From NCBI GenBank assembly GCA_943736015.1, contig OX031065.1:19544427-19608426 (forward strand): a DNA stretch of 64,000 bases, read 5' to 3'. This DNA is from Tridacna crocea. Taxonomy: Eukaryota > Mollusca > Bivalvia > Cardiida > Cardiidae. Each line of letters opens with the position of its first letter. Position 1 is the stretch's first letter. The notes beneath the pieces are model-generated. The model made no database searches and was not told the origin of the DNA. It saw nothing but the letters and a program-made list of their open reading frames with translations. Positions 1-23,015 of this stretch are shown piece by piece. The position numbers were made by a program, and so were the translations under genes.

Positions 1-131
1 GCCTCCGAAAGTGTCGAAGTTGATTTTACGATTTTATGCACAGCACGTAACAGTCAGGTATGGGCGAGATGGTCATCGTAACCAAATCAATGGCCCTAGT
101 AAGAGAAAATGAAAAAGAAAAATCCCTACAA

Positions 132-310
132 TTGACTTAAGCAACCATTGTCGTCTGCTATAAAATATTTCGTAAGTCGAATTTTCATGTTTTTGCGGAT
201 ACGTAAGTGGCACCTGCGAGACAGTAGACAACCTAAATGGGTTTGTTGTCAGGCATAAAAAGATTGGGAAAAAAAAAAAAGATATTAGAAATTATATAAG
301 TTCCCTCTAT
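132..310 (+). repeat. Diverged satellite monomer m2 (179 bp), shown in copy 1
   Basis: This is one of five related monomers inside the unit, anchored on the TTGA word at its start. The core from GTCGTCTGCTAT onward aligns with the next monomer at about four-fifths identity by hand. The main difference is an extra 8-9 bp (ATGTTTTT) near 186-194. The conserved box TGCGAGACAGTAGACAAC is at 215-232. It ends with the A12 tract (269-280) and an AT-rich linker. It recurs in every copy. Confidence 0.8.
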
Positions 311-479
311 TTGACCCATCAAGCAGCAGGTGTCGTCTGCTATGAAATGCTCCGTACGTCGATTTTTCGCGGAGACGTAAATGGCACCTATGAGACGGTA
401 GACAACGTAAATGGATTTGTCGTCACGGTATAAAGAGAATGGAGAAAGAAATATACATTAAAAATTTAGTTCCTTTTCT
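311..479 (+). repeat. Diverged satellite monomer m3 (169 bp), shown in copy 1
   Basis: This monomer shares GTCGTCTGCTAT and GCACCTATGAGACGGTAG with its neighbours, with the conserved box TATGAGACGGTAGACAAC at 389-406. It is the most CpG-dense part of the unit, with about 11 CpG in about 110 bp, including CGTACGTCG and TCGCGGAGACG. Its length is close to the typical nucleosomal repeat, as in many centromeric satellites; any centromeric role is inference only. Confidence 0.8.
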
Positions 480-665
480 TTGATTTATGCAATAAGAAGC
501 AGTTGATACTGAAAGAGCCTTCAGTCTTTTTTTAGCCACTTGTCGCATTATTTTCTGGGGTTTTCGCATGAGCGTAACGGGCACATATGAGACGGTAGTC
601 AACCTAACTGGGTTTCTTGTTGCGGTTTGAAGAGATTAGAAAAATTACACTTCAGTTGCCTTTGT
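480..665 (+). repeat. Diverged satellite monomer m4 (186 bp), shown in copy 1
   Basis: It aligns with m3 through GCGTAACGGGCACATATGAG and the box TATGAGACGGTAGTCAAC (586-603), then GGGTTTCTTGTTGCGG and AAGAGA. It is longer than the others because of a T-rich stretch (TCTTTTTTTAGCCA) in its first half, which m5 also has. m4 and m5 are therefore the closest pair on that side. Confidence 0.78.
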
Positions 666-717
666 TTGATATATGGGTTTTCAGTGTTTTTTTAGCCATT
701 TGTCACATTAATTTCTG
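666..717 (+). repeat. Left part of interrupted monomer m5, shown in copy 1
   Basis: It starts with TTGATATATGG and runs through GTTTTTTTAGCCA and TTGTCACATTAATTTCTG. This matches m4 in order and spacing (TTTTTTTAGCCACTTGTC, then GCATTATTTTCTGGGG). Similarity stops at the G/T tract, where the 779-bp insert begins. The missing second half is found at 1497-1619. Confidence 0.7.
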
Positions 718-965
718 GGGGGGTTTTTACACTGTACATTGATCACTTTGGCTTATTGAAAAGTTTCAATGTGCAGCATTTATTGTGGGCCCAGTTAGAA
801 AAGCAAATCTAGCTAAGGGCTGGGGAGGGCGGGGTGCATCGAGGGTTAAAGGGAAGTAACTCTTGCAAGGGGCTTGAAAAGACCAAAACAAGGTCTTCTG
901 GGCCCCTATTTTCTTAAATGTTTGCCCATATTCAGTGAAATCTGGCATGTGTGGATGGTGCATGC

Positions 966-980
966 CTGGCAGTTTGCCAA
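966..980 (+). promoter_or_regulatory. NFI-like palindromic site
   Basis: CTGGC, a five-base spacer and GCCAA match the NFI/CTF consensus TTGGC(N5)GCCAA with one mismatch. The site lies in the insert and repeats in every copy. It could occur by chance; no binding is shown by sequence alone. Confidence 0.25.
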
Positions 981-1092
981 GGACTGCACAGAAGCCTTTA
1001 AAGAAGACTTTAAATCCACTTTTATGCCGTTTTTTTTTCACTGTTTTGTATTGATAAATTAGCGCGCCATTTAGGAGCGAATTTGAAGCTCT

Positions 1093-1207
1093 CTGATTGG
1101 CTGATGGGCCCAGCTTTGAATTTGGCTGTTGGTACCCATTCTGATTTCCTTAAAGCTTCTCTGATTGGATCATTTCAGAGAGGGAAGAGATTTGATTGGC
1201 TGATGGG
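1093..1207 (-). promoter_or_regulatory. Cluster of three inverted CCAAT boxes (NF-Y-like)
   Basis: ATTGG occurs at 1096-1100, 1164-1168 and 1195-1199. Read on the minus strand these are CCAAT boxes, two of them within AGCCAATCA, which fits the NF-Y consensus. The last two are 31 bp apart, close to the roughly 31-33 bp spacing known for paired NF-Y sites in cell-cycle promoters. The 14-bp word GATTGGCTGATGGG occurs twice (1095-1108 and 1194-1207), so part of the cluster arose by local duplication. A GC-rich GGCGCGCTAA lies just downstream on the minus strand (1059-1068). Promoter activity is inference. Confidence 0.3.
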
Positions 1208-1210
1208 AAA

Positions 1211-1220
1211 GGGGGGGGGG
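1211..1220 (+). repeat. Hypervariable poly-G tract (G10 in copy 1)
   Basis: The tract lies between GATGGGAAA and AATATCTG. Its length varies from copy to copy: 8 in copies 8, 16, 34; 9 in 5, 9, 19, 27, 29, 32, 36; 11 in 3, 12, 13, 17, 18, 20, 21, 28, 37-39; 10 elsewhere, except copy 11, which has G9-A-G2. It is the main source of unit length variation and of reading-frame changes across the unit. Confidence 0.9.
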
Positions 1221-1304
1221 AATATCTGTTTATCCTTATTAACCTTTTACCACATAATGCAGCGGCTTTTTAACACCCCGAAGGCTTTTGAAAATAAACT
1301 GAGG

Positions 1305-1341
1305 AAAGGAGAAAATGCAGGTTACCAGCATTTTCTCCTTT
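1305..1341 (+). repeat. 37-bp near-perfect palindrome (14-bp stem hairpin)
   Basis: The left arm AAAGGAGAAAATGC (1305-1318) is the exact reverse complement of GCATTTTCTCCTTT (1328-1341). The 9-base centre AGGTTACCA itself contains GGT/ACC, so the whole is a palindrome with one mismatched pair around a central T at 1323. It lies in the insert and I saw no variation in it in any copy. It is not the histone mRNA stem-loop and has no T-run of a bacterial terminator. It could form a cruciform in DNA or a hairpin in a transcript. Confidence 0.8.
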
Positions 1342-1496
1342 TCCCACAATGTTTTCTACCCTATCAAAGAAAAAAATTGGATTTTTAGTCATTCTTACAT
1401 CTTATTTAATCTTTATGGCCTACTTCTGAATTCTTCAAACAAGAACAAGATTTTTTTATCGGAAAAAGTTTCCCCAACAGCAACCTGTTGCTTCTG

Positions 1497-1619
1497 AATT
1501 TTATATTTCGCGCAGCGGTTAAACATAAAATTGACTTATGACTCGCGTGGTCGTCAAAATCGCTTCAATGTTTTCGTGACCCTGGTAAGAAAACAGGGAA
1601 AAATTTTGTTTACCTTTCT
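1497..1619 (+). repeat. Right part of interrupted monomer m5, shown in copy 1
   Basis: TTTCGCGCAGCGGTTAA aligns with TTTCGCATGAGCGTAACGG of m4. TATGACTCGCGTGGTCGTCA (1537-1556) aligns with the conserved box of the other monomers (TATGAGACGGTAGTCAAC in m4). It then runs through GGTAAGAAAACAGGG into the linker before the next TTGA anchor. With 666-717 it makes one complete monomer. Confidence 0.7.
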
Positions 1620-1775
1620 TTGATTTGTACAACAGGTGTCAGTTGCCTCCGAAAGTGTCGAAGTTGATTTTACGATTTTATGCACAGCACGTAACAGTCA
1701 GGTATGGGCGAGATGGTCATCGTAACCAAATCAATGGCCCTAGTAAGAGAAAATGAAAAAGAAAAATCCCTACAA
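1620..1775 (+). repeat. Diverged satellite monomer m1 (156 bp), spanning the copy 1/copy 2 junction
   Basis: It starts TTGATTTGTACAACAGG, resembling the m4 start TTGATTTATGCAATAAG. It carries the most diverged form of the conserved box (TATGGGCGAGATGGTCATCG, at 59-78 in the copy 1 phase). It is followed by TAGTAAGAGAAAATG and then directly by m2. It is the shortest monomer. Confidence 0.72.
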
Positions 1776-3287
1776 TTGACTTAAGCAACCATTGTCGTCT
1801 GCTATAAAATATTTCGTAAGTCGAATTTTCATGTTTTTGCGGATACGTAAGTGGCACCTGGAGACAGTAGACAACCTAAATGGGTTTGTTGTCAGGCATA
1901 AAAAGATTGGGAAAAAAAAAAAGATATTAGAAATTATATAAGTTCCCTCTATTTGACCCATCAAGCAGCAGGTGTCGTCTGCTATGAAATGCTCCGTACG
2001 TCGATTTTTCGCGGAGACGTAAATGGCACCTATGAGACGGTAGACAACGTAAATGGATTTGTCGTCACGGTATAAAGAGAATGGAGAAAGAAATATACAT
2101 TAAAAATTTAGTTCCTTTTCTTTGATTTATGCAATAAGAAGCAGTTGATACTGAAAGAGCCTTCAGTCTTTTTTTAGCCACTTGTCGCATTATTTTCTGG
2201 GGTTTTCGCATGAGCGTAACGGGCACATATGAGACGGTAGTCAACCTAACTGGGTTTCTTGTTGCGGTTTGAAGAGATTAGAAAAATTACACTTCAGTTG
2301 CCTTTGTTTGATATATGGGTTTTCAGTGTTTTTTTAGCCATTTGTCACATTAATTTCTGGGGGGGTTTTTACACTGTACATTGATCACTTTGGCTTATTG
2401 AAAAGTTTCAATGTGCAGCATTTATTGTGGGCCCAGTTAGAAAAGCAAATCTAGCTAAGGGCTGGGGAGGGCGGGGTGCATCGAGGGTTAAAGGGAAGTA
2501 ACTCTTGCAAGGGGCTTGAAAAGACCAAAACAAGGTCTTCTGGGCCCCTATTTTCTTAAATGTTTGCCCATATTCAGTGAAATCTGGCATGTGTGGATGG
2601 TGCATGCCTGGCAGTTTGCCAAGGACTGCACAGAAGCCTTTAAAGAAGACTTTAAATCCACTTTTATGCCGTTTTTTTTTTCACTGTTTTGTATTGATAA
2701 ATTAGCGCGCCATTTAGGAGCGAATTTGAAGCTCTCTGATTGGCTGATGGGCCCAGCTTTGAATTTGGCTGTTGGTACCCATTCTGATTTCCTTAAAGCT
2801 TCTCTGATTGGATCATTTCAGAGAGGGAAGAGATTTGATTGGCTGATGGGAAAGGGGGGGGGGAATATCTGTTTATCCTTATTAACCTTTTACCACATAA
2901 TGCAGCGGCTTTTTAACACCCCGAAGGCTTTTGAAAATAAACTGAGGAAAGGAGAAAATGCAGGTTACCAGCATTTTCTCCTTTTCCCACAATGTTTTCT
3001 ACCCTATCAAAGAAAAAAATTGGATTTTTAGTCATTCTTACATCTTATTTAATCTTTATGGCCTACTTCTGAATTCTTCAAACAAGAACAAGATTTTTTT
3101 ATCGGAAAAAGTTTCCCCAACAGCAACCTGTTGCTTCTGAATTTTATATTTCGCGCAGCGGTTAAACATAAAATTGACTTATGACTCGCGTGGTCGTCAA
3201 AATCGCTTCAATGTTTTCGTGACCCTGGTAAGAAAACAGGGAAAAATTTTGTTTACCTTTCTTTGATTTGTACAACAGGTGTCAGTT
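1645..3287 (+). repeat. Satellite unit copy 2 (1,643 bp)
   Basis: Three private indels: loss of C near 1860 (CACCTGGAGAC instead of CACCTGCGAGAC), A11 instead of A12 (1912-1922), and T10 instead of T9 (2672-2681). The T10 change breaks the minus-strand open frame present in the other copies. G10. Confidence 0.97.
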
Positions 3288-4932
3288 GCCTCCGAAAGTG
3301 TCGAAGTTGATTTTACGATTTTATGCACAGCACGTAACAGTCAGGTATGGGCGAGATGGTCATCGTAACCAAATCAATGGCCCTAGTAAGAGAAAATGAA
3401 AAAGAAAAATCCCTACAATTGACTTAAGCAACCATTGTCGTCTGCTATAAAATATTTCGTAAGTCGAATTTTCATGTTTTTGCGGATACGTAAGTGGCAC
3501 CTGCGAGACAGTAGACAACCTAAATGGGTTTGTTGTCAGGCATAAAAAGATTGGGAAAAAAAAAAAAGATATTAGAAATTATATAAGTTCCCTCTATTTG
3601 ACCCATCAAGCAGCAGGTGTCGTCTGCTATGAAATGCTCCGTACGTCGATTTTTCGCGGAGACGTAAATGGCACCTATGAGACGGTAGACAACGTAAATG
3701 GATTTGTCGTCACGGTATAAAGAGAATGGAGAAAGAAATATACATTAAAAATTTAGTTCCTTTTCTTTGATTTATGCAATAAGAAGCAGTTGATACTGAA
3801 AGAGCCTTCAGTCTTTTTTTAGCCACTTGTCGCATTATTTTCTGGGGTTTTCGCATGAGCGTAACGGGCACATATGAGACGGTAGTCAACCTAACTGGGT
3901 TTCTTGTTGCGGTTTGAAGAGATTAGAAAAATTACACTTCAGTTGCCTTTGTTTGATATATGGGTTTTCAGTGTTTTTTTAGCCATTTGTCACATTAATT
4001 TCTGGGGGGGGTTTTACACTGTACATTGATCACTTTGGCTTATTGAAAAGTTTCAATGTGCAGCATTTATTGTGGGCCCAGTTAGAAAAGCAAATCTAGC
4101 TAAGGGCTGGGGAGGGCGGGGTGCATCGAGGGTTAAAGGGAAGTAACTCTTGCAAGGGGCTTGAAAAGACCAAAACAAGGTCTTCTGGGCCCCTATTTTC
4201 TTAAATGTTTGCCCATATTCAGTGAAATCTGGCATGTGTGGATGGTGCATGCCTGGCAGTTTGCCAAGGACTGCACAGAAGCCTTTAAAGAAGACTTTAA
4301 ATCCACTTTTATGCCGTTTTTTTTTCACTGTTTTGTATTGATAAATTAGCGCGCCATTTAGGAGCGAATTTGAAGCTCTCTGATTGGCTGATGGGCCCAG
4401 CTTTGAATTTGGCTGTTGGTACCCATTCTGATTTCCTTAAAGCTTCTCTGATTGGATCATTTCAGAGAGGGAAGAGATTTGATTGGCTGATGGGAAAGGG
4501 GGGGGGGGAATATCTGTTTATCCTTATTAACCTTTTACCACATAATGCAGCGGCTTTTTAACACCCCGAAGGCTTTTGAAAATAAACTGAGGAAAGGAGA
4601 AAATGCAGGTTACCAGCATTTTCTCCTTTTCCCACAATGTTTTCTACCCTATCAAAGAAAAAAATTGGATTTTTAGTCATTCTTACATCTTATTTAATCT
4701 TTATGGCCTACTTCTGAATTCTTCAAACAAGAACAAGATTTTTTTATCGGAAAAAGTTTCCCCAACAGCAACCTGTTGCTTCTGAATTTTATATTTCGCG
4801 CAGCGGTTAAACATAAAATTGACTTATGACTCGCGTGGTCGTCAAAATCGCTTCAATGTTTTCGTGACCCTGGTAAGAAAACAGGGAAAAATTTTGTTTA
4901 CCTTTCTTTGATTTGTACAACAGGTGTCAGTT
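3288..4932 (+). repeat. Satellite unit copy 3 (1,645 bp)
   Basis: G11 in the main G tract. The G/T tract is G8T4, the same total length as the usual G7T5. Confidence 0.97.
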
Positions 4933-6576
4933 GCCTCCGAAAGTGTCGAAGTTGATTTTACGATTTTATGCACAGCACGTAACAGTCAGGTATGGGCGAG
5001 ATGGTCATCGTAACCAAATCAATGGCCCTAGTAAGAGAAAATGAAAAAGAAAAATCCCTACAATTGACTTAAGCAACCATTGTCGTCTGCTATAAAATAT
5101 TTCGTAAGTCGAATTTTCATGTTTTTGCGGATACGTAAGTGGCACCTGCGAGACAGTAGACAACCTAAATGGGTTTGTTGTCAGGCATAAAAAGATTGGG
5201 AAAAAAAAAAAAGATATTAGAAATTATATAAGTTCCCTCTATTTGACCCATCAAGCAGCAGGTGTCGTCTGCTATGAAATGCTCCGTACGTCGATTTTTC
5301 GCGGAGACGTAAATGGCACCTATGAGACGGTAGACAACGTAAATGGATTTGTCGTCACGGTATAAAGAGAATGGAGAAAGAAATATACATTAAAAATTTA
5401 GTTCCTTTTCTTTGATTTATGCAATAAGAAGCAGTTGATACTGAAAGAGCCTTCAGTCTTTTTTTAGCCACTTGTCGCATTATTTTCTGGGGTTTTCGCA
5501 TGAGCGTAACGGGCACATATGAGACGGTAGTCAACCTAACTGGGTTTCTTGTTGCGGTTTGAAGAGATTAGAAAAATTACACTTCAGTTGCCTTTGTTTG
5601 ATATATGGGTTTTCAGTGTTTTTTTAGCCATTTGTCACATTAATTTCTGGGGGGGTTTTTACACTGTACATTGATCACTTTGGCTTATTGAAAAGTTTCA
5701 ATGTGCAGCATTTATTGTGGGCCCAGTTAGAAAAGCAAATCTAGCTAAGGGCTGGGGAGGGCGGGGTGCATCGAGGGTTAAAGGGAAGTAACTCTTGCAA
5801 GGGGCTTGAAAAGACCAAAACAAGGTCTTCTGGGCCCCTATTTTCTTAAATGTTTGCCCATATTCAGTGAAATCTGGCATGTGTGGATGGTGCATGCCTG
5901 GCAGTTTGCCAAGGACTGCACAGAAGCCTTTAAAGAAGACTTTAAATCCACTTTTATGCCGTTTTTTTTTCACTGTTTTGTATTGATAAATTAGCGCGCC
6001 ATTTAGGAGCGAATTTGAAGCTCTCTGATTGGCTGATGGGCCCAGCTTTGAATTTGGCTGTTGGTACCCATTCTGATTTCCTTAAAGCTTCTCTGATTGG
6101 ATCATTTCAGAGAGGGAAGAGATTTGATTGGCTGATGGGAAAGGGGGGGGGGAATATCTGTTTATCCTTATTAACCTTTTACCACATAATGCAGCGGCTT
6201 TTTAACACCCCGAAGGCTTTTGAAAATAAACTGAGGAAAGGAGAAAATGCAGGTTACCAGCATTTTCTCCTTTTCCCACAATGTTTTCTACCCTATCAAA
6301 GAAAAAAATTGGATTTTTAGTCATTCTTACATCTTATTTAATCTTTATGGCCTACTTCTGAATTCTTCAAACAAGAACAAGATTTTTTTATCGGAAAAAG
6401 TTTCCCCAACAGCAACCTGTTGCTTCTGAATTTTATATTTCGCGCAGCGGTTAAACATAAAATTGACTTATGACTCGCGTGGTCGTCAAAATCGCTTCAA
6501 TGTTTTCGTGACCCTGGTAAGAAAACAGGGAAAAATTTTGTTTACCTTTCTTTGATTTGTACAACAGGTGTCAGTT
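4933..6576 (+). repeat. Satellite unit copy 4 (1,644 bp)
   Basis: Consensus as read by eye, G10. Confidence 0.97.
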
Positions 6577-8219
6577 GCCTCCGAAAGTGTCGAAGTTGAT
6601 TTTACGATTTTATGCACAGCACGTAACAGTCAGGTATGGGCGAGATGGTCATCGTAACCAAATCAATGGCCCTAGTAAGAGAAAATGAAAAAGAAAAATC
6701 CCTACAATTGACTTAAGCAACCATTGTCGTCTGCTATAAAATATTTCGTAAGTCGAATTTTCATGTTTTTGCGGATACGTAAGTGGCACCTGCGAGACAG
6801 TAGACAACCTAAATGGGTTTGTTGTCAGGCATAAAAAGATTGGGAAAAAAAAAAAAGATATTAGAAATTATATAAGTTCCCTCTATTTGACCCATCAAGC
6901 AGCAGGTGTCGTCTGCTATGAAATGCTCCGTACGTCGATTTTTCGCGGAGACGTAAATGGCACCTATGAGACGGTAGACAACGTAAATGGATTTGTCGTC
7001 ACGGTATAAAGAGAATGGAGAAAGAAATATACATTAAAAATTTAGTTCCTTTTCTTTGATTTATGCAATAAGAAGCAGTTGATACTGAAAGAGCCTTCAG
7101 TCTTTTTTTAGCCACTTGTCGCATTATTTTCTGGGGTTTTCGCATGAGCGTAACGGGCACATATGAGACGGTAGTCAACCTAACTGGGTTTCTTGTTGCG
7201 GTTTGAAGAGATTAGAAAAATTACACTTCAGTTGCCTTTGTTTGATATATGGGTTTTCAGTGTTTTTTTAGCCATTTGTCACATTAATTTCTGGGGGGGT
7301 TTTTACACTGTACATTGATCACTTTGGCTTATTGAAAAGTTTCAATGTGCAGCATTTATTGTGGGCCCAGTTAGAAAAGCAAATCTAGCTAAGGGCTGGG
7401 GAGGGCGGGGTGCATCGAGGGTTAAAGGGAAGTAACTCTTGCAAGGGGCTTGAAAAGACCAAAACAAGGTCTTCTGGGCCCCTATTTTCTTAAATGTTTG
7501 CCCATATTCAGTGAAATCTGGCATGTGTGGATGGTGCATGCCTGGCAGTTTGCCAAGGACTGCACAGAAGCCTTTAAAGAAGACTTTAAATCCACTTTTA
7601 TGCCGTTTTTTTTTCACTGTTTTGTATTGATAAATTAGCGCGCCATTTAGGAGCGAATTTGAAGCTCTCTGATTGGCTGATGGGCCCAGCTTTGAATTTG
7701 GCTGTTGGTACCCATTCTGATTTCCTTAAAGCTTCTCTGATTGGATCATTTCAGAGAGGGAAGAGATTTGATTGGCTGATGGGAAAGGGGGGGGGAATAT
7801 CTGTTTATCCTTATTAACCTTTTACCACATAATGCAGCGGCTTTTTAACACCCCGAAGGCTTTTGAAAATAAACTGAGGAAAGGAGAAAATGCAGGTTAC
7901 CAGCATTTTCTCCTTTTCCCACAATGTTTTCTACCCTATCAAAGAAAAAAATTGGATTTTTAGTCATTCTTACATCTTATTTAATCTTTATGGCCTACTT
8001 CTGAATTCTTCAAACAAGAACAAGATTTTTTTATCGGAAAAAGTTTCCCCAACAGCAACCTGTTGCTTCTGAATTTTATATTTCGCGCAGCGGTTAAACA
8101 TAAAATTGACTTATGACTCGCGTGGTCGTCAAAATCGCTTCAATGTTTTCGTGACCCTGGTAAGAAAACAGGGAAAAATTTTGTTTACCTTTCTTTGATT
8201 TGTACAACAGGTGTCAGTT
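6577..8219 (+). repeat. Satellite unit copy 5 (1,643 bp)
   Basis: G9; otherwise consensus. Confidence 0.97.
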
Positions 8220-9863
8220 GCCTCCGAAAGTGTCGAAGTTGATTTTACGATTTTATGCACAGCACGTAACAGTCAGGTATGGGCGAGATGGTCATCGTAA
8301 CCAAATCAATGGCCCTAGTAAGAGAAAATGAAAAAGAAAAATCCCTACAATTGACTTAAGCAACCATTGTCGTCTGCTATAAAATATTTCGTAAGTCGAA
8401 TTTTCATGTTTTTGCGGATACGTAAGTGGCACCTGCGAGACAGTAGACAACCTAAATGGGTTTGTTGTCAGGCATAAAAAGATTGGGAAAAAAAAAAAAG
8501 ATATTAGAAATTATATAAGTTCCCTCTATTTGACCCATCAAGCAGCAGGTGTCGTCTGCTATGAAATGCTCCGTACGTCGATTTTTCGCGGAGACGTAAA
8601 TGGCACCTATGAGACGGTAGACAACGTAAATGGATTTGTCGTCACGGTATAAAGAGAATGGAGAAAGAAATATACATTAAAAATTTAGTTCCTTTTCTTT
8701 GATTTATGCAATAAGAAGCAGTTGATACTGAAAGAGCCTTCAGTCTTTTTTTAGCCACTTGTCGCATTATTTTCTGGGGTTTTCGCATGAGCGTAACGGG
8801 CACATATGAGACGGTAGTCAACCTAACTGGGTTTCTTGTTGCGGTTTGAAGAGATTAGAAAAATTACACTTCAGTTGCCTTTGTTTGATATATGGGTTTT
8901 CAGTGTTTTTTTAGCCATTTGTCACATTAATTTCTGGGGGGGGTTTTACACTGTACATTGATCACTTTGGCTTATTGAAAAGTTTCAATGTGCAGCATTT
9001 ATTGTGGGCCCAGTTAGAAAAGCAAATCTAGCTAAGGGCTGGGGAGGGCGGGGTGCATCGAGGGTTAAAGGGAAGTAACTCTTGCAAGGGGCTTGAAAAG
9101 ACCAAAACAAGGTCTTCTGGGCCCCTATTTTCTTAAATGTTTGCCCATATTCAGTGAAATCTGGCATGTGTGGATGGTGCATGCCTGGCAGTTTGCCAAG
9201 GACTGCACAGAAGCCTTTAAAGAAGACTTTAAATCCACTTTTATGCCGTTTTTTTTTCACTGTTTTGTATTGATAAATTAGCGCGCCATTTAGGAGCGAA
9301 TTTGAAGCTCTCTGATTGGCTGATGGGCCCAGCTTTGAATTTGGCTGTTGGTACCCATTCTGATTTCCTTAAAGCTTCTCTGATTGGATCATTTCAGAGA
9401 GGGAAGAGATTTGATTGGCTGATGGGAAAGGGGGGGGGGAATATCTGTTTATCCTTATTAACCTTTTACCACATAATGCAGCGGCTTTTTAACACCCCGA
9501 AGGCTTTTGAAAATAAACTGAGGAAAGGAGAAAATGCAGGTTACCAGCATTTTCTCCTTTTCCCACAATGTTTTCTACCCTATCAAAGAAAAAAATTGGA
9601 TTTTTAGTCATTCTTACATCTTATTTAATCTTTATGGCCTACTTCTGAATTCTTCAAACAAGAACAAGATTTTTTTATCGGAAAAAGTTTCCCCAACAGC
9701 AACCTGTTGCTTCTGAATTTTATATTTCGCGCAGCGGTTAAACATAAAATTGACTTATGACTCGCGTGGTCGTCAAAATCGCTTCAATGTTTTCGTGACC
9801 CTGGTAAGAAAACAGGGAAAAATTTTGTTTACCTTTCTTTGATTTGTACAACAGGTGTCAGTT
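8220..9863 (+). repeat. Satellite unit copy 6 (1,644 bp)
   Basis: G/T tract G8T4, G10; otherwise consensus. Confidence 0.97.
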
Positions 9864-11507
9864 GCCTCCGAAAGTGTCGAAGTTGATTTTACGATTTTAT
9901 GCACAGCACGTAACAGTCAGGTATGGGCGAGATGGTCATCGTAACCAAATCAATGGCCCTAGTAAGAGAAAATGAAAAAGAAAAATCCCTACAATTGACT
10001 TAAGCAACCATTGTCGTCTGCTATAAAATATTTCGTAAGTCGAATTTTCATGTTTTTGCGGATACGTAAGTGGCACCTGCGAGACAGTAGACAACCTAAA
10101 TGGGTTTGTTGTCAGGCATAAAAAGATTGGGAAAAAAAAAAAAGATATTAGAAATTATATAAGTTCCCTCTATTTGACCCATCAAGCAGCAGGTGTCGTC
10201 TGCTATGAAATGCTCCGTACGTCGATTTTTCGCGGAGACGTAAATGGCACCTATGAGACGGTAGACAACGTAAATGGATTTGTCGTCACGGTATAAAGAG
10301 AATGGAGAAAGAAATATACATTAAAAATTTAGTTCCTTTTCTTTGATTTATGCAATAAGAAGCAGTTGATACTGAAAGAGCCTTCAGTCTTTTTTTAGCC
10401 ACTTGTCGCATTATTTTCTGGGGTTTTCGCATGAGCGTAACGGGCACATATGAGACGGTAGTCAACCTAACTGGGTTTCTTGTTGCGGTTTGAAGAGATT
10501 AGAAAAATTACACTTCAGTTGCCTTTGTTTGATATATGGGTTTTCAGTGTTTTTTTAGCCATTTGTCACATTAATTTCTGGGGGGGTTTTTACACTGTAC
10601 ATTGATCACTTTGGCTTATTGAAAAGTTTCAATGTGCAGCATTTATTGTGGGCCCAGTTAGAAAAGCAAATCTAGCTAAGGGCTGGGGAGGGCGGGGTGC
10701 ATCGAGGGTTAAAGGGAAGTAACTCTTGCAAGGGGCTTGAAAAGACCAAAACAAGGTCTTCTGGGCCCCTATTTTCTTAAATGTTTGCCCATATTCAGTG
10801 AAATCTGGCATGTGTGGATGGTGCATGCCTGGCAGTTTGCCAAGGACTGCACAGAAGCCTTTAAAGAAGACTTTAAATCCACTTTTATGCCGTTTTTTTT
10901 TCACTGTTTTGTATTGATAAATTAGCGCGCCATTTAGGAGCGAATTTGAAGCTCTCTGATTGGCTGATGGGCCCAGCTTTGAATTTGGCTGTTGGTACCC
11001 ATTCTGATTTCCTTAAAGCTTCTCTGATTGGATCATTTCAGAGAGGGAAGAGATTTGATTGGCTGATGGGAAAGGGGGGGGGGAATATCTGTTTATCCTT
11101 ATTAACCTTTTACCACATAATGCAGCGGCTTTTTAACACCCCGAAGGCTTTTGAAAATAAACTGAGGAAAGGAGAAAATGCAGGTTACCAGCATTTTCTC
11201 CTTTTCCCACAATGTTTTCTACCCTATCAAAGAAAAAAATTGGATTTTTAGTCATTCTTACATCTTATTTAATCTTTATGGCCTACTTCTGAATTCTTCA
11301 AACAAGAACAAGATTTTTTTATCGGAAAAAGTTTCCCCAACAGCAACCTGTTGCTTCTGAATTTTATATTTCGCGCAGCGGTTAAACATAAAATTGACTT
11401 ATGACTCGCGTGGTCGTCAAAATCGCTTCAATGTTTTCGTGACCCTGGTAAGAAAACAGGGAAAAATTTTGTTTACCTTTCTTTGATTTGTACAACAGGT
11501 GTCAGTT
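9864..11507 (+). repeat. Satellite unit copy 7 (1,644 bp)
   Basis: Consensus as read by eye, G10. Confidence 0.97.
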
Positions 11508-13149
11508 GCCTCCGAAAGTGTCGAAGTTGATTTTACGATTTTATGCACAGCACGTAACAGTCAGGTATGGGCGAGATGGTCATCGTAACCAAATCAATGG
11601 CCCTAGTAAGAGAAAATGAAAAAGAAAAATCCCTACAATTGACTTAAGCAACCATTGTCGTCTGCTATAAAATATTTCGTAAGTCGAATTTTCATGTTTT
11701 TGCGGATACATAAGTGGCACCTGCGAGACAGTAGACAACCTAAATGGGTTTGTTGTCAGGCATAAAAAGATTGGGAAAAAAAAAAAAGATATTAGAAATT
11801 ATATAAGTTCCCTCTATTTGACCCATCAAGCAGCAGGTGTCGTCTGCTATGAAATGCTCCGTACGTCGATTTTTCGCGGAGACGTAAATGGCACCTATGA
11901 GACGGTAGACAACGTAAATGGATTTGTCGTCACGGTATAAAGAGAATGGAGAAAGAAATATACATTAAAAATTTAGTTCCTTTTCTTTGATTTATGCAAT
12001 AAGAAGCAGTTGATACTGAAAGAGCCTTCAGTCTTTTTTTAGCCACTTGTCGCATTATTTTCTGGGGTTTTCGCATGAGCGTAACGGGCACATATGAGAC
12101 GGTAGTCAACCTAACTGGGTTTCTTGTTGCGGTTTGAAGAGATTAGAAAAATTACACTTCAGTTGCCTTTGTTTGATATATGGGTTTTCAGTGTTTTTTT
12201 AGCCATTTGTCACATTAATTTCTGGGGGGGTTTTTACACTGTACATTGATCACTTTGGCTTATTGAAAAGTTTCAATGTGCAGCATTTATTGTGGGCCCA
12301 GTTAGAAAAGCAAATCTAGCTAAGGGCTGGGGAGGGCGGGGTGCATCGAGGGTTAAAGGGAAGTAACTCTTGCAAGGGGCTTGAAAAGACCAAAACAAGG
12401 TCTTCTGGGCCCCTATTTTCTTAAATGTTTGCCCATATTCAGTGAAATCTGGCATGTGTGGATGGTGCATGCCTGGCAGTTTGCCAAGGACTGCACAGAA
12501 GCCTTTAAAGAAGACTTTAAATCCACTTTTATGCCGTTTTTTTTTCACTGTTTTGTATTGATAAATTAGCGCGCCATTTAGGAGCGAATTTGAAGCTCTC
12601 TGATTGGCTGATGGGCCCAGCTTTGAATTTGGCTGTTGGTACCCATTCTGATTTCCTTAAAGCTTCTCTGATTGGATCATTTCAGAGAGGGAAGAGATTT
12701 GATTGGCTGATGGGAAAGGGGGGGGAATATCTGTTTATCCTTATTAACCTTTTACCACATAATGCAGCGGCTTTTTAACACCCCGAAGGCTTTTGAAAAT
12801 AAACTGAGGAAAGGAGAAAATGCAGGTTACCAGCATTTTCTCCTTTTCCCACAATGTTTTCTACCCTATCAAAGAAAAAAATTGGATTTTTAGTCATTCT
12901 TACATCTTATTTAATCTTTATGGCCTACTTCTGAATTCTTCAAACAAGAACAAGATTTTTTTATCGGAAAAAGTTTCCCCAACAGCAACCTGTTGCTTCT
13001 GAATTTTATATTTCGCGCAGCGGTTAAACATAAAATTGACTTATGACTCGCGTGGTCGTCAAAATCGCTTCAATGTTTTCGTGACCCTGGTAAGAAAACA
13101 GGGAAAAATTTTGTTTACCTTTCTTTGATTTGTACAACAGGTGTCAGTT
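11508..13149 (+). repeat. Satellite unit copy 8 (1,642 bp)
   Basis: G8. G to A at 11710 destroys a CpG (GATACATAAG for GATACGTAAG). Confidence 0.97.
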
Positions 13150-14791
13150 GCCTCCGAAAGTGTCGAAGTTGATTTTACGATTTTATGCACAGCACGTAAC
13201 AGTCAGGTATGGGCGAGATGGTCATCGTAACCAAATCAATGGCCCTAGTAAGAGAAAATGAAAAAGAAAAATCCCTACAATTGACTTAAGCAACCATTGT
13301 CGTCTGCTATAAAATATTTCGTAAGTCGAATTTTCATGTTTTTGCGGATACGTAAGTGGCACCTGCGAGACAGTAGACAACCTAAATGGGTTTGTTGTCA
13401 GGCATAAAAAGATTGGGAAAAAAAAAAAAGATATTAGAAATTATATAAGTTCCCTCTATTTGACCCATCAAGCAGCAGGTGTCGTCTGCTATGAAATGCT
13501 CCGTACGTCGATTTTTCGCGGAGACGTAAATGGCACCTATGAGACGGTAGACAACGTAAATGGATTTGTCGTCACGGTATAAAGAGAATGGAGAAAGAAA
13601 TATACATTAAAAATTTAGTTCCTTTTCTTTGATTTATGCAATAAGAAGCAGTTGATACTGAAAGAGCCTTCAGTCTTTTTTTAGCCACTTGTCGCATTAT
13701 TTTCTGGGGTTTTCGCATGAGCGTAACAGGCACATATGAGACGGTAGTCAACCTAACTGGGTTTCTTGTTGCGGTTTGAAGAGATTAGAAAAATTACACT
13801 TCAGTTGCCTTTGTTTGATATATGGGTTTTCAGTGTTTTTTTAGCCATTTGTCACATTAATTTCTGGGGGGGTTTTTACACTGTACATTGATCACTTTGG
13901 CTTATTGAAAAGTTTCAATGTGCAGCATTTATTGTGGGCCCAGTTAGAAAAGCAAATCTAGCTAAGGGCTGGGGAGGGCGGGGTGCATCGAGGGTTAAAG
14001 GGAAGTAACTCTTGCAAGGGGCTTGAAAAGACCAAAACAAGGTCTTCTGGGCCCCTATTTTCTTAAATGTTTGCCCATATTCAGTGAAATCTGGCATGTG
14101 TGGATGGTGCATGCCTGGCAGTTTGCCAAGGACTGCACAGAAGCCTTTAAAGAAGACTTTAAATCCACTTTTATGCCGTTTTTTTTTCACTGTTTTGTAT
14201 TGATAAATTAGCGCGCCATTTAGGAGCGAATTTGAAGCTCTCTGATTGGCTGATGGGCCCAGCTTTGAATTTGGCTGTTGGTACCCATTCTGATTTCCTT
14301 AAAGCTTCTCTGATTGGATCATTTCAGAGAGGGAAGAGATTTGATTGGCTGATGGGAAAGGGGGGGGGAATATCTGTTTATCCTTATTAACCTTTTACCA
14401 CATAATGCAGCGGCTTTTTAACACCCCGAAGGCTTTTGAAAATAAACTGAGGAAAGGAGAAAATGCAGGTTACCAGCATTTTCTCCTTTTCCCACAATGT
14501 TTTCTACCCTATCAAAGAAAAAAATTGGATTTTTAGTCATTCTTACATCTTATTTAATCTTTATGGCCTACTTCTGAATTCTTCAAACAAGAACAAGATT
14601 TTTTTATCGGAAAAAGTTTCCCCAACAGCAACCTGTTGCTTCTGAATTTTATATTTCGCGCAGCGGTTAAACATAAAATTGACTTATGACTCGCGTGGTC
14701 GTCAAAATCGCTTCAATGTTTTCGTGACCCTGGTAAGAAAACAGGGAAAATTTTGTTTACCTTTCTTTGATTTGTACAACAGGTGTCAGTT
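13150..14791 (+). repeat. Satellite unit copy 9 (1,642 bp)
   Basis: G9. G to A at 13728 at a CpG (GTAACAGG). One A is lost from the short A5 run near 14747-14750. Confidence 0.97.
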
Positions 14792-16434
14792 GCCTCCGAA
14801 AGTGTCGAAGTTGATTTTACGATTTTATGCACAGCACGTAACAGTCAGGTATGGGCGAGATGGTCATCGTAACCAAATCAATGGCCCTAGTAAGAGAAAA
14901 TGAAAAAGAAAAATCCCTACAATTGACTTAAGCAACCATTGTCGTCTGCTATAAAATATTTCGTAAGTCGAATTTTCATGTTTTTGCGGATACGTAAGTG
15001 GCACCTGCGAGACAGTAGACAACCTAAATGGGTTTGTTGTCAGGCATAAAAAGATTGGGAAAAAAAAAAAGATATTAGAAATTATATAAGTTCCCTCTAT
15101 TTGACCCATCAAGCAGCAGGTGTCGTCTGCTATGAAATGCTCCGTACGTCGATTTTTCGCGGAGACGTAAATGGCACCTATGAGACGGTAGACAACGTAA
15201 ATGGATTTGTCGTCACGGTATAAAGAGAATGGAGAAAGAAATATACATTAAAAATTTAGTTCCTTTTCTTTGATTTATGCAATAAGAAGCAGTTGATACT
15301 GAAAGAGCCTTCAGTCTTTTTTTAGCCACTTGTCGCATTATTTTCTGGGGTTTTCGCATGAGCGTAACGGGCACATATGAGACGGTAGTCAACCTAACTG
15401 GGTTTCTTGTTGCGGTTTGAAGAGATTAGAAAAATTACACTTCAGTTGCCTTTGTTTGATATATGGGTTTTCAGTGTTTTTTTAGCCATTTGTCACATTA
15501 ATTTCTGGGGGGGTTTTTACACTGTACATTGATCACTTTGGCTTATTGAAAAGTTTCAATGTGCAGCATTTATTGTGGGCCCAGTTAGAAAAGCAAATCT
15601 AGCTAAGGGCTGGGGAGGGCGGGGTGCATCGAGGGTTAAAGGGAAGTAACTCTTGCAAGGGGCTTGAAAAGACCAAAACAAGGTCTTCTGGGCCCCTATT
15701 TTCTTAAATGTTTGCCCATATTCAGTGAAATCTGGCATGTGTGGATGGTGCATGCCTGGCAGTTTGCCAAGGACTGCACAGAAGCCTTTAAAGAAGACTT
15801 TAAATCCACTTTTATGCCGTTTTTTTTTCACTGTTTTGTATTGATAAATTAGCGCGCCATTTAGGAGCGAATTTGAAGCTCTCTGATTGGCTGATGGGCC
15901 CAGCTTTGAATTTGGCTGTTGGTACCCATTCTGATTTCCTTAAAGCTTCTCTGATTGGATCATTTCAGAGAGGGAAGAGATTTGATTGGCTGATGGGAAA
16001 GGGGGGGGGGAATATCTGTTTATCCTTATTAACCTTTTACCACATAATGCAGCGGCTTTTTAACACCCCGAAGGCTTTTGAAAATAAACTGAGGAAAGGA
16101 GAAAATGCAGGTTACCAGCATTTTCTCCTTTTCCCACAATGTTTTCTACCCTATCAAAGAAAAAAATTGGATTTTTAGTCATTCTTACATCTTATTTAAT
16201 CTTTATGGCCTACTTCTGAATTCTTCAAACAAGAACAAGATTTTTTTATCGGAAAAAGTTTCCCCAACAGCAACCTGTTGCTTCTGAATTTTATATTTCG
16301 CGCAGCGGTTAAACATAAAATTGACTTATGACTCGCGTGGTCGTCAAAATCGCTTCAATGTTTTCGTGACCCTGGTAAGAAAACAGGGAAAAATTTTGTT
16401 TACCTTTCTTTGATTTGTACAACAGGTGTCAGTT
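14792..16434 (+). repeat. Satellite unit copy 10 (1,643 bp)
   Basis: A11 tract (15060-15070), G10; otherwise consensus. Confidence 0.97.
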
Positions 16435-18080
16435 GCCTCCGAAAGTGTCGAAGTTGATTTTACGATTTTATGCACAGCACGTAACAGTCAGGTATGGGCG
16501 AGATGGTCATCGTAACCAAATCAATGGCCCTAGTAAGAGAAAATGAAAAAGAAAAATCCCTACAATTGACTTAAGCAACCATTGTCGTCTGCTATAAAAT
16601 ATTTCGTAAGTCGAATTTTCATGTTTTTGCGGATACGTAAGTGGCACCTGCGAGACAGTAGACAACCTAAATGGGTTTGTTGTCAGGCATAAAAAGATTG
16701 GGAAAAAAAAAAAAGATATTAGAAATTATATAAGTTCCCTCTATTTGACCCATCAAGCAGCAGGTGTCGTCTGCTATGAAATGCTCCGTACGTCGATTTT
16801 TCGCGGAGACGTAAATGGCACCTATGAGACGGTAGACAACGTAAATGGATTTGTCGTCACGGTATAAAGAGAATGGAGAAAGAAATATACATTAAAAATT
16901 TAGTTCCTTTTCTTTGATTTATGCAATAAGAAGCAGTTGATACTGAAAGAGCCTTCAGTCTTTTTTTAGCCACTTGTCGCATTATTTTCTGGGGTTTTCG
17001 CATGAGCGTAACGGGCACATATGAGACGGTAGTCAACCTAACTGGGTTTCTTGTTGCGGTTTGAAGAGATTAGAAAAATTACACTTCAGTTGCCTTTGTT
17101 TGATATATGGGTTTTCAGTGTTTTTTTAGCCATTTGTCACATTAATTTCTGGGGGGGTTTTTACACTGTACATTGATCACTTTGGCTTATTGAAAAGTTT
17201 CAATGTGCAGCATTTATTGTGGGCCCAGTTAGAAAAGCAAATCTAGCTAAGGGCTGGGGAGGGCGGGGTGCATCGAGGGTTAAAGGGAAGTAACTCTTGC
17301 AAGGGGCTTGAAAAGACCAAAACAAGGTCTTCTGGGCCCCTATTTTCTTAAATGTTTGCCCATATTCAGTGAAATCTGGCATGTGTGGATGGTGCATGCC
17401 TGGCAGTTTGCCAAGGACTGCACAGAAGCCTTTAAAGAAGACTTTAAATCCACTTTTATGCCGTTTTTTTTTCACTGTTTTGTATTGATAAATTAGCGCG
17501 CCATTTAGGAGCGAATTTGAAGCTCTCTGATTGGCTGATGGGCCCAGCTTTGAATTTGGCTGTTGGTACCCATTCTGATTTCCTTAAAGCTTCTCTGATT
17601 GGATCATTTCAGAGAGGGAAGAGATTTGATTGGCTGATGGGAAAGGGGGGGGGAGGAATATCTGTTTATCCTTATTAACCTTTTACCACATAATGCAGCG
17701 GCTTTTTAACACCCCGAAGGCTTTTGAAAATAAACTGAGGAAAGGAGAAAATGCAGGTTACCAGCATTTTCTCCTTTTCCCACAATGTTTTCTACCCTAT
17801 CAAAGAAAAAAATTGGATTTTTAGTCATTCTTACATCTTATTTAATCTTTATGGCCTACTTCTGAATTCTTCAAACAAGAACAAGATTTTTTTATCGGAA
17901 AAAGTTTCCCCAACAGCAACCTGTTGCTTCTGAATTTTATATTTCGCGCAGCGGTTAAACATAAAATTGACTTATGACTCGCGTGGTCGTCAAAATCGCT
18001 TCAATGTTTTCGTGACCCTGGTAAGAAAACAGGGAAAAATTTTGTTTACCTTTCTTTGATTTGTACAACAGGTGTCAGTT
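16435..18080 (+). repeat. Satellite unit copy 11 (1,646 bp)
   Basis: The G tract is G9-A-G2 (17645-17656), the only copy with an interruption in this tract. Confidence 0.97.
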
Positions 18081-19725
18081 GCCTCCGAAAGTGTCGAAGT
18101 TGATTTTACGATTTTATGCACAGCACGTAACAGTCAGGTATGGGCGAGATGGTCATCGTAACCAAATCAATGGCCCTAGTAAGAGAAAATGAAAAAGAAA
18201 AATCCCTACAATTGACTTAAGCAACCATTGTCGTCTGCTATAAAATATTTCGTAAGTCGAATTTTCATGTTTTTGCGGATACGTAAGTGGCACCTGCGAG
18301 ACAGTAGACAACCTAAATGGGTTTGTTGTCAGGCATAAAAAGATTGGGAAAAAAAAAAAAGATATTAGAAATTATATAAGTTCCCTCTATTTGACCCATC
18401 AAGCAGCAGGTGTCGTCTGCTATGAAATGCTCCGTACGTCGATTTTTCGCGGAGACGTAAATGGCACCTATGAGACGGTAGACAACGTAAATGGATTTGT
18501 CGTCACGGTATAAAGAGAATGGAGAAAGAAATATACATTAAAAATTTAGTTCCTTTTCTTTGATTTATGCAATAAGAAGCAGTTGATACTGAAAGAGCCT
18601 TCAGTCTTTTTTTAGCCACTTGTCGCATTATTTTCTGGGGTTTTCGCATGAGCGTAACGGGCACATATGAGACGGTAGTCAACCTAACTGGGTTTCTTGT
18701 TGCGGTTTGAAGAGATTAGAAAAATTACACTTCAGTTGCCTTTGTTTGATATATGGGTTTTCAGTGTTTTTTTAGCCATTTGTCACATTAATTTCTGGGG
18801 GGGTTTTTACACTGTACATTGATCACTTTGGCTTATTGAAAAGTTTCAATGTGCAGCATTTATTGTGGGCCCAGTTAGAAAAGCAAATCTAGCTAAGGGC
18901 TGGGGAGGGCGGGGTGCATCGAGGGTTAAAGGGAAGTAACTCTTGCAAGGGGCTTGAAAAGACCAAAACAAGGTCTTCTGGGCCCCTATTTTCTTAAATG
19001 TTTGCCCATATTCAGTGAAATCTGGCATGTGTGGATGGTGCATGCCTGGCAGTTTGCCAAGGACTGCACAGAAGCCTTTAAAGAAGACTTTAAATCCACT
19101 TTTATGCCGTTTTTTTTTCACTGTTTTGTATTGATAAATTAGCGCGCCATTTAGGAGCGAATTTGAAGCTCTCTGATTGGCTGATGGGCCCAGCTTTGAA
19201 TTTGGCTGTTGGTACCCATTCTGATTTCCTTAAAGCTTCTCTGATTGGATCATTTCAGAGAGGGAAGAGATTTGATTGGCTGATGGGAAAGGGGGGGGGG
19301 GAATATCTGTTTATCCTTATTAACCTTTTACCACATAATGCAGCGGCTTTTTAACACCCCGAAGGCTTTTGAAAATAAACTGAGGAAAGGAGAAAATGCA
19401 GGTTACCAGCATTTTCTCCTTTTCCCACAATGTTTTCTACCCTATCAAAGAAAAAAATTGGATTTTTAGTCATTCTTACATCTTATTTAATCTTTATGGC
19501 CTACTTCTGAATTCTTCAAACAAGAACAAGATTTTTTTATCGGAAAAAGTTTCCCCAACAGCAACCTGTTGCTTCTGAATTTTATATTTCGCGCAGCGGT
19601 TAAACATAAAATTGACTTATGACTCGCGTGGTCGTCAAAATCGCTTCAATGTTTTCGTGACCCTGGTAAGAAAACAGGGAAAAATTTTGTTTACCTTTCT
19701 TTGATTTGTACAACAGGTGTCAGTT
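18081..19725 (+). repeat. Satellite unit copy 12 (1,645 bp)
   Basis: G11; otherwise consensus. Confidence 0.97.
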
Positions 19726-21371
19726 GCCTCCGAAAGTGTCGAAGTTGATTTTACGATTTTATGCACAGCACGTAACAGTCAGGTATGGGCGAGATGGTCA
19801 TCGTAACCAAATCAATGGCCCTAGTAAGAGAAAATGAAAAAGAAAAATCCCTACAATTGACTTAAGCAACCATTGTCGTCTGCTATAAAATATTTCGTAA
19901 GTCGAATTTTCATGTTTTTGCGGATACGTAAGTGGCACCTGCGAGACAGTAGACAACCTAAATGGGTTTGTTGTCAGGCATAAAAAGATTGGGAAAAAAA
20001 AAAAAGATATTAGAAATTATATAAGTTCCCTCTATTTGACCCATCAAGCAGCAGGTGTCGTCTGCTATGAAATGCTCCGTACGTCGATTTTTCGCGGAGA
20101 CGTAAATGGCACCTATGAGACGGTAGACAACGTAAATGGATTTGTCGTCACGGTATAAAGAGAATGGAGAAAGAAATATACATTAAAAATTTAGTTCCTT
20201 TTCTTTGATTTATGCAATAAGAAGCAGTTGATACTGAAAGAGCCTTCAGTCTTTTTTTAGCCACTTGTCGCATTATTTTCTGGGGTTTTCGCATGAGCGT
20301 AACGGGCACATATGAGACGGTAGTCAACCTAACTGGGTTTCTTGTTGCGGTTTGAAGAGATTAGAAAAATTACACTTCAGTTGCCTTTGTTTGATATATG
20401 GGTTTTCAGTGTTTTTTTAGCCATTTGTCACATTAATTTTTTGGGGGGGGTTTTACACTGTACATTGATCACTTTGGCTTATTGAAAAGTTTCAATGTGC
20501 AGCATTTATTGTGGGCCCAGTTAGAAAAGCAAATCTAGCTAAGGGCTGGGGAGGGCGGGGTGCATCGAGGGTTAAAGGGAAGTAACTCTTGCAAGGGGCT
20601 TGAAAAGACCAAAACAAGGTCTTCTGGGCCCCTATTTTCTTAAATGTTTGCCCATATTCAGTGAAATCTGGCATGTGTGGATGGTGCATGCCTGGCAGTT
20701 TGCCAAGGACTGCACAGAAGCCTTTAAAGAAGACTTTAAATCCACTTTTATGCCGTTTTTTTTTCACTGTTTTGTATTGATAAATTAGCGCGCCATTTAG
20801 GAGCGAATTTGAAGCTCTCTGATTGGCTGATGGGCCCAGCTTTGAATTTGGCTGTTGGTACCCATTCTGATTTCCTTAAAGCTTCTCTGATTGGATCATT
20901 TCAGAGAGGGAAGAGATTTGATTGGCTGATGGGAAAGGGGGGGGGGGAATATCTGTTTATCCTTATTAACCTTTTACCACATAATGCAGCGGCTTTTTAA
21001 CACCCCGAAGGCTTTTGAAAATAAACTGAGGAAAGGAGAAAATGCAGGTTACCAGCATTTTCTCCTTTTCCCACAATGTTTTCTACCCTATCAAAGAAAA
21101 AAATTGGATTTTTAGTCATTCTTACATCTTATTTAATCTTTATGGCCTACTTCTGAATTCTTCAAACAAGAACAAGATTTTTTTATCGGAAAAAGTTTCC
21201 CCAACAGCAACCTGTTGCTTCTGAATTTTATATTTCGCGCAGCGGTTAAACATAAAATTGACTTATGACTCGCGTGGTCGTCAAAATCGCTTCAATGTTT
21301 TCGTGACCCTGGTAAGAAAACAGGGAAAAATTTTGTTTACCTTTCTTTGATTTGTACAACAGGTGTCAGTT
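19726..21371 (+). repeat. Satellite unit copy 13 (1,646 bp)
   Basis: G11. At 20437-20450 the usual TTTCTG7 has become T6G8: the C is lost to a longer T run at the left insert junction. Confidence 0.97.
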
Positions 21372-23015
21372 GCCTCCGAAAGTGTCGAAGTTGATTTTAC
21401 GATTTTATGCACAGCACGTAACAGTCAGGTATGGGCGAGATGGTCATCGTAACCAAATCAATGGCCCTAGTAAGAGAAAATGAAAAAGAAAAATCCCTAC
21501 AATTGACTTAAGCAACCATTGTCGTCTGCTATAAAATATTTCGTAAGTCGAATTTTCATGTTTTTGCGGATACGTAAGTGGCACCTGCGAGACAGTAGAC
21601 AACCTAAATGGGTTTGTTGTCAGGCATAAAAAGATTGGGAAAAAAAAAAAAGATATTAGAAATTATATAAGTTCCCTCTATTTGACCCATCAAGCAGCAG
21701 GTGTCGTCTGCTATGAAATGCTCCGTACGTCGATTTTTCGCGGAGACGTAAATGGCACCTATGAGACGGTAGACAACGTAAATGGATTTGTCGTCACGGT
21801 ATAAAGAGAATGGAGAAAGAAATATACATTAAAAATTTAGTTCCTTTTCTTTGATTTATGCAATAAGAAGCAGTTGATACTGAAAGAGCCTTCAGTCTTT
21901 TTTTAGCCACTTGTCGCATTATTTTCTGGGGTTTTCGCATGAGCGTAACGGGCACATATGAGACGGTAGTCAACCTAACTGGGTTTCTTGTTGCGGTTTG
22001 AAGAGATTAGAAAAATTACACTTCAGTTGCCTTTGTTTGATATATGGGTTTTCAGTGTTTTTTTAGCCATTTGTCACATTAATTTCTGGGGGGGTTTTTA
22101 CACTGTACATTGATCACTTTGGCTTATTGAAAAGTTTCAATGTGCAGCATTTATTGTGGGCCCAGTTAGAAAAGCAAATCTAGCTAAGGGCTGGGGAGGG
22201 CGGGGTGCATCGAGGGTTAAAGGGAAGTAACTCTTGCAAGGGGCTTGAAAAGACCAAAACAAGGTCTTCTGGGCCCCTATTTTCTTAAATGTTTGCCCAT
22301 ATTCAGTGAAATCTGGCATGTGTGGATGGTGCATGCCTGGCAGTTTGCCAAGGACTGCACAGAAGCCTTTAAAGAAGACTTTAAATCCACTTTTATGCCG
22401 TTTTTTTTTCACTGTTTTGTATTGATAAATTAGCGCGCCATTTAGGAGCGAATTTGAAGCTCTCTGATTGGCTGATGGGCCCAGCTTTGAATTTGGCTGT
22501 TGGTACCCATTCTGATTTCCTTAAAGCTTCTCTGATTGGATCATTTCAGAGAGGGAAGAGATTTGATTGGCTGATGGGAAAGGGGGGGGGGAATATCTGT
22601 TTATCCTTATTAACCTTTTACCACATAATGCAGCGGCTTTTTAACACCCCGAAGGCTTTTGAAAATAAACTGAGGAAAGGAGAAAATGCAGGTTACCAGC
22701 ATTTTCTCCTTTTCCCACAATGTTTTCTACCCTATCAAAGAAAAAAATTGGATTTTTAGTCATTCTTACATCTTATTTAATCTTTATGGCCTACTTCTGA
22801 ATTCTTCAAACAAGAACAAGATTTTTTTATCGGAAAAAGTTTCCCCAACAGCAACCTGTTGCTTCTGAATTTTATATTTCGCGCAGCGGTTAAACATAAA
22901 ATTGACTTATGACTCGCGTGGTCGTCAAAATCGCTTCAATGTTTTCGTGACCCTGGTAAGAAAACAGGGAAAAATTTTGTTTACCTTTCTTTGATTTGTA
23001 CAACAGGTGTCAGTT
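21372..23015 (+). repeat. Satellite unit copy 14 (1,644 bp)
   Basis: Consensus as read by eye, G10. Confidence 0.97.

Follow-up and report, generated by a model that had tools for sequence, protein, structure and literature searches.

A composite satellite of diverged monomers and a MITE-bearing core in the genome of Tridacna crocea

The higher-order repeats (HORs) of primate alpha satellite are made of monomers only; near-nucleosomal, diverged monomers follow one another in a fixed order, several monomers are homogenised together, arrays carry their own variants, and whole monomers are gained and lost. Other arrays contain a transposable element (TE), as in the human composite transposable element arrays; their tandem unit combines a TE piece with satellite-like parts and further DNA, an organization that the unit described here matches in outline. 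HOR models of alpha satellite are treated in the available text of PMC8997354, and the human composite arrays are mentioned in that of PMC9186530. Among bivalves, the Cg170/HindIII and BIV160 satellites and their HINE/pearl carriers combine monomers of ~160-170 bp with a tie to mobile elements (excerpts of PMC7492417 and PMC5139131), and in the beetle Tribolium madens the satellites TmSat1 and TmSat2 have subunits inside longer units, occur in both orientations and are assigned to putative pericentromeric regions (PMC13081366, accessible portion).

We analyzed a window of 64 kb (C10:19,544,427-19,608,426) that consists entirely of one tandem satellite array. We regard it as very probable that this DNA is a composite satellite, in which a monomer block of the form A-B-C-D-(E)-stub is joined to a core bearing a MITE, whole units are homogenised together, and the same monomer slots are common to arrays on different chromosomes. 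The unit shares with alpha satellite HORs its near-nucleosomal, diverged monomers in fixed order, its homogenisation over several monomers, its array-specific variants and its gain and loss of whole monomers. Unlike those HORs, 54% of it is neither monomer nor stub and its monomers are down to 52% alike. In contrast to Cg170 and BIV160, its monomers are embedded in a homogenised 1.6 kb unit, and while the inverted subarrays of TmSat1 and TmSat2 adjoin within tens of kb (PMC13081366, same portion), oppositely oriented sites here lie about 1-15 Mb apart. It is a well-built but fairly ordinary kind of satellite, in which HOR evolution (slot conservation, array-level homogenisation, whole-monomer gain and loss) can be followed in a unit that is not purely monomeric.

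The array and its repeat unit

The host genome as searched comprises 31 contigs and 1.05 Gb, with the window on contig C10. A 30-base anchor occurs 39 times in the window at spacings of 1642-1646 bp, and the array (1..64000, + strand) is made of 38 full units of this length and a partial one. Pairwise identity between units is 99.7-100% over aligned bases, and the mean differences between the 38 full units are flat with inter-unit distance. One repeat unit, in the frame of an earlier sequence-only reading of this DNA, spans 1..1644 (+). Tandem Repeats Finder, run with a period limit of 500, returned no rows, and in a literature search made without the host name we noticed no paper on a 1.64 kb unit.

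The C10 array starts at ~19.410 Mb, where a monomer fragment abuts unrelated sequence, and it is present at 19.800-19.802 Mb and absent at 19.820 Mb, which makes it ~0.4 Mb long; in the part covered by the matches listed, it lies on the + strand. At the left edge (L039 1-895, C10 ~19.409 Mb), unrelated DNA is followed by a fragment of a C-like monomer, which joins the core at unit position 1310. Unit spacings near this edge (C10:19,410,600-19,430,000) are more variable than further inside, as expected if exchange homogenises the middle of an array most.

The sequence-only reading had proposed a pentameric unit. Four full monomers and a stub cover less than half of it (761 of 1644 bp, 46%), beside a core of ~880 bp with a MITE fragment, and the unit is therefore not a pentamer of monomers.

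Genomic distribution and the centromere question

A core word chosen outside the MITE has 7,500 + 8,835 = 16,335 matches genome-wide (≤3 mismatches). At ~1.7 kb per unit, and assuming one match per unit and that all matches lie in units, the satellite would occupy about 27 Mb, some 2.6% of the genome. For a D-type monomer word the genome-wide count is 13,283. Word matches fall on at least 12 of the 31 contigs. Tandem units were read in sequence on ten of them (C1, C2, C4, C5, C6, C7, C8, C10, C11 and C15), on C12 match spacing alone points to an array, and on C17 there is a pair of matches separated by 31 kb.

More than one array site is present on each of C4, C5, C6, C8, C10 and C12. Both orientations occur on C4, C5, C6, C8 and C10 (the sites near 24 Mb on C4 and near 23 Mb on C5 being placed by word matches only), and the several sites on C12 share a single orientation. 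On C10, for example, a - array runs from 15.25 Mb to 15.42 Mb or beyond, and a + array from 19.41 to ~19.81 Mb. This distribution fits a (peri)centromeric zone but also fits scattered heterochromatin; a location in (peri)centromeric heterochromatin is possible.

A functional centromeric satellite, with CenH3 nucleosomes on the ~170 bp monomers and one array per chromosome, would account for the high abundance, for arrays of hundreds of kb with array-specific variants, for near-nucleosomal monomers and for word matches on 12 of 31 contigs. We nevertheless consider this putative role rather unlikely, as six contigs carry two or more sites, separated by up to ~15 Mb, and more than half of the unit is non-monomeric. 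In contrast to alpha and other CENP-B-binding satellites, a CENP-B-box-like site is absent from the window; the pattern used has 0 matches with ≤1 mismatch, where shuffles averaged 7.6, a result that counts as one observation rather than many because the window is one repeated unit. No ~10 bp WW periodicity was detected in the monomer block (p 0.65) or the core (p 0.16). In another bivalve, the oyster C. gigas, centromere-specific repeats are reported to be lacking, on the basis of earlier ChIP work as given in the accessible text of PMC8268682. The composite satellite favored here is best read as a major one, possibly pericentromeric in placement and homogenised by unequal exchange.

The core, its MITE fragment and the CpG contrast

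The core, which holds no full monomers, spans 728..1610 (+) and is 88-99% alike over 728-1536 between 13 array representatives, a comparison from which C8:21.65 was left out because the core start was not found there. Strong conservation at 1450-1477 is partly built in, because that word served for sampling. Being shared, the core provides an internal yardstick by which arrays can be dated independently of their monomers.

Within the core, 1239..1397 (+) is a diverged fragment of a dispersed MITE of ~230 bp, TTAA-ended and with a central palindrome, as seen from dispersed copies that we fetched. The palindrome appears in inverted-repeat and hairpin analysis as an unstranded inverted repeat at 1290..1356, whose 33 bp arms are 79% complementary and 1 nt apart; the inverted-repeat search returned four further pairs. 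A 33-base hairpin word has 282,817 matches on the + and 284,135 on the - strand genome-wide (≤3 mismatches), where its reversed control has none at the same threshold; the number of MITE copies may be about half of this strand sum, because a near-palindromic copy can count on both strands. Judged from these matches (≤3 mismatches), the MITE has perhaps 280,000 copies or more and occupies several percent of the genome. At all 12 hairpin-word places fetched, each chosen by exact match to the word, the unit matched only within 1235-1397, and the TTAACC.../...GTTAA-like MITE ends were recognised by script on both sides in four copies, on one side in six and on neither in two. The family of the core fragment thus has dispersed copies with terminal inverted repeats, as befits a MITE. 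A reading of the hairpin as a satellite-specific dyad was rejected, since the hairpin belongs to this abundant dispersed element. A relationship between monomers and MITE was likewise rejected; comparison of 4 MITE copies with 4 monomers on both strands yielded a single borderline alignment.

The outline of the unit (monomer block, stub, flank, palindrome) resembles that of a non-autonomous Helentron. According to the available part of PMC7492417, HINEs have two flanking modules, the right of which contains a palindrome, a short satellite-like array often lies between the modules, and some HINEs of C. gigas carry ~166 bp repeats of Cg170 type. Descent of the unit from such a HINE/pearl-type element, with a central tandem-repeat block and itself amplified in tandem, is improbable in our estimation, as the palindrome of the unit belongs to a separate dispersed MITE and the three places fetched as candidate single copies all proved to be arrays. 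Among the 100 core-word matches listed, three lie on C7, about 6.1 kb apart, and the others lie on C10 in runs at array spacing; old single copies would escape this list because it holds exact matches only.

The two parts of the unit differ sharply in CpG content. The observed/expected ratio is 0.90-1.19 in the monomer block (1611-2371 in window coordinates) and 0.35-0.48 in the core (728-1537), in 21 of 21 measurable loci, several of which come from the same arrays; 24 loci had been taken, three of them without a block or core of accepted size. In 17 non-array loci, 12 of them picked for a MITE, the ratio is 0.62. Between arrays, C>T/G>A change affects 65 of 837 CpG cells and 63 of 2,613 other C/G cells in the monomers (~3x), and 14 of 285 against 85 of 3,541 in the core (~2x), with Fisher p-values that are too small because the cells are not independent. 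CpG decay in each half suggests, from base changes between arrays, that both have been exposed to methylation-type mutation, in which case a difference in origin or age is a likelier source of the contrast than a difference in methylation. Such a sharp contrast inside one unit offers a way to ask whether satellites are shaped by methylation or by their origin. One might also imagine a centromere-competent composite with split roles, in which the CpG-rich block would position CenH3 nucleosomes, the CpG-poor, palindrome-bearing core would mark flanking heterochromatin and opposite arrays would bound the centromere; we hold this to be very improbable.

Three ATTGG words lie in related 16-base copies at 1090-1204 of the core. 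The first is in a well-conserved stretch, the second is part of 11 consecutive bases that do not vary among 13 arrays, and the third falls in the least conserved stretch of the core (13 representatives). With two of these CCAAT-like words in conserved stretches and a strong hairpin nearby, a tandem non-coding RNA gene or promoter array might be envisaged, a reading to which we assign hardly any weight, given that the hairpin is that of the MITE and that RNA genes were rejected by direct search. The only Rfam family found (window 1-3400, E≤1) was a Brucella sRNA, which matched the hairpin in each of the two units at 24.6 bits against a gathering score of 155, and a tRNA search with bacterial settings found none. 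Protein coding was also rejected; 17 open reading frames of at least 100 aa (16 of 101 aa, one of 171 aa) are spread across 39 unit starts.

The monomer block and its slots across arrays

Within the unit, the sequence-only reading had seen a hidden second-level periodicity of five diverged monomers, anchored by TTGA at 132, 311, 480, 666 and 1620. All five anchors are present but carry little weight alone, because there are 17 TTGA per unit. The proposed spacings of 156-186 bp are correct, with anchor start-to-start distances of 156 (A), 179 (B), 169 (C) and 186 bp (D). By alignment and profile search, we delimit monomer A (156 bp, 1611..1766), which is the most diverged slot and spans the border of the 1..1644 frame, monomer B (179 bp, 123..301) and monomer C (169 bp, 302..470), the last absent from the C1 unit and, at C8:6.46 Mb, from one of two units read there. 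Monomer D (187 bp, 471..657), delimited by alignment, has a segment that A, B and C lack, and a stub, h (658..727; alignment and profile), contains only the 5' part of a D-like monomer; all five lie on the + strand.

The test on which that reading had staked the periodicity, pairwise alignment against shuffled sequence, was run with local alignments scored against 200 dinucleotide shuffles per segment pair, and it shows that A, B, C and D are related. The z values are 42 for B/C, 25 for C/D, 17 for B/D and 14 for D/stub; monomer A is weaker (A/C 7.2, A/D 4.0, A/B 3.8), and the A/D score was reached by one of 200 shuffles. In leave-one-slot-out searches, in which profiles built from 43-45 monomers of the other slots were run against the unit, A scored 14.5 bits (E 9e-6), B 77, C 104 and D 98, where the best scores in 300 shuffled units were 4.1-5.8 bits. 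In the unit on C10, identity is 52-55% between A and the other monomers, 79% between B and C, 59% between B and D, and 61% between C and D. Among four control segments that span 846-1529, z did not exceed 3 for any pair (+ strand only). The segment 1530..1602 (+), possibly a degenerate trace of another monomer, aligns with A at z 5.2, but its scores of 2.7-5.1 bits in three of the four profile searches are such as the best shuffles also reach.

The alignment and profile results bear out the periodicity itself, with two amendments. Of the words said to recur, in like form, in the five segments, GTCGTCTGC is exact in B and C only and GAGACGGTAG in C and D only. A to D stand as full diverged monomers, but the segment at 666 is a D-related stub of ~65 bp, in which 666-727 aligns with 503-564, the 5' part of D (50/65), and alignment with A, B or C is no better than chance by the shuffle test. 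Its profile score falls to 1.9 bits once D-type monomers are left out, which marks it as a truncated D-like copy. Identity with BIV160 was set aside as far as two BIV160 primers go (from the available text of PMC5139131), whose matches to the monomer block do not exceed those of their shuffled versions. That the five segments are unrelated and alike by chance, as the modest A/B and A/D values might suggest if taken alone, has a negligible probability, being refuted for A, B, C and D by the shuffle alignments and profile searches and contrary also to the slot tree and the slot identities across arrays.

The same unit recurs in other arrays. Across the genome the A anchor is matched exactly at 2,232 places, of which the first lie on C1, mostly spaced ~1,666 bp. 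Over aligned bases the C1 unit shares 86% identity with that of C10; it has a D-type monomer in place of C and a longer stub. Further arrays were sampled by length- and base-variants of one conserved core word, with uneven yield, and the sample is not random because it was drawn in this way. The slot comparison used 56 full monomers (13 A, 13 B, 11 C, 13 D and 6 E) from 13 array representatives, each array being represented by a single unit from a single locus. The tree leaves out further loci of these arrays, C6:7.55, and fetches from C10:13.86, C11 and C15, the last three of which are also tandem arrays. In a midpoint-rooted tree, printed without support values, monomers cluster mainly by slot and not by chromosome, with B nested in C and E nested in D; for C1 and C8:6.46, slots were named once this tree had been inspected. 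Monomers of the same slot in different arrays have a median identity of 91.6% (n=304 pairs, lowest 79.7%), compared with 57.7% for different slots of the same array (n=95, highest 92.4%), and D and E are ~90% alike.

The sequence-only reading had also likened the unit to a higher-order repeat. Much of that design is found here: monomers A to D are homologous and diverged within the unit and occupy fixed slots, units are much more alike than their internal monomers and are homogenised whole, and the same slots are recognisable on other contigs (13 representatives, two of them named after the tree). The unit does not consist of a whole number of monomers and no other DNA, as monomers and stub account for 761 of 1644 bp and one monomer is truncated. 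It falls outside a strict definition of a higher-order repeat because more than half of it is not monomer, though its behavior is HOR-like.

The composite satellite could have arisen when a short row of diverged ~170 bp monomers was joined to ~880 bp of other DNA that had acquired the MITE, yielding an ancestral unit that would have multiplied in tandem and then spread to many chromosomes. We infer this single origin and order of events; no ancestral single copy was found. Unequal exchange or gene conversion between whole units would keep arrays uniform and, because it acts on whole units, would leave the units of the window's array near-identical and the monomers within each unit old and diverged. 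Exchange inside the monomer block may occasionally gain or lose whole monomers, giving unit lengths from ~1.5 to 2.1 kb.

Unit make-up varies between arrays by whole monomers. The order A-B-C-D-h is found on C10, C2, C4 (31.98 Mb), C5, C7 and at C8:21.65, A-B-D-E-h on C1, A-B-C-D-E-h in four C6 representatives and at C8:22.17, and A-B-D-h at C8:6.46. Across arrays, unit spacings range from 1,472 bp to ~2.1 kb, the longest at C6 near 16.8 Mb, and C4 near 24 Mb has mixed spacings of ~1,828, 1,813 and 1,688 bp. Arrays differ in sequence and spacing, and chromosome-specific variants exist; a C10-unit word has 230 matches, all on the + strand, and the 100 matches listed are all on C10, which in a contig-ordered list leaves none on C1-C9. 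Neighboring units are not always uniform, which counts against the composite-satellite account; at C8:6.46 the three-monomer unit is preceded by one with four full monomers, and at C8:21.65 a four-monomer unit is preceded by a six-monomer block. Not seen in L031 or L032, repeats of a core-start word near 728 occur in the C6 arrays L024, L025, L026, L028 and L029, where two or three copies (≤5 mismatches) follow each other every 163-193 bp, as though duplication of the monomer kind had spread into the edge of the core.
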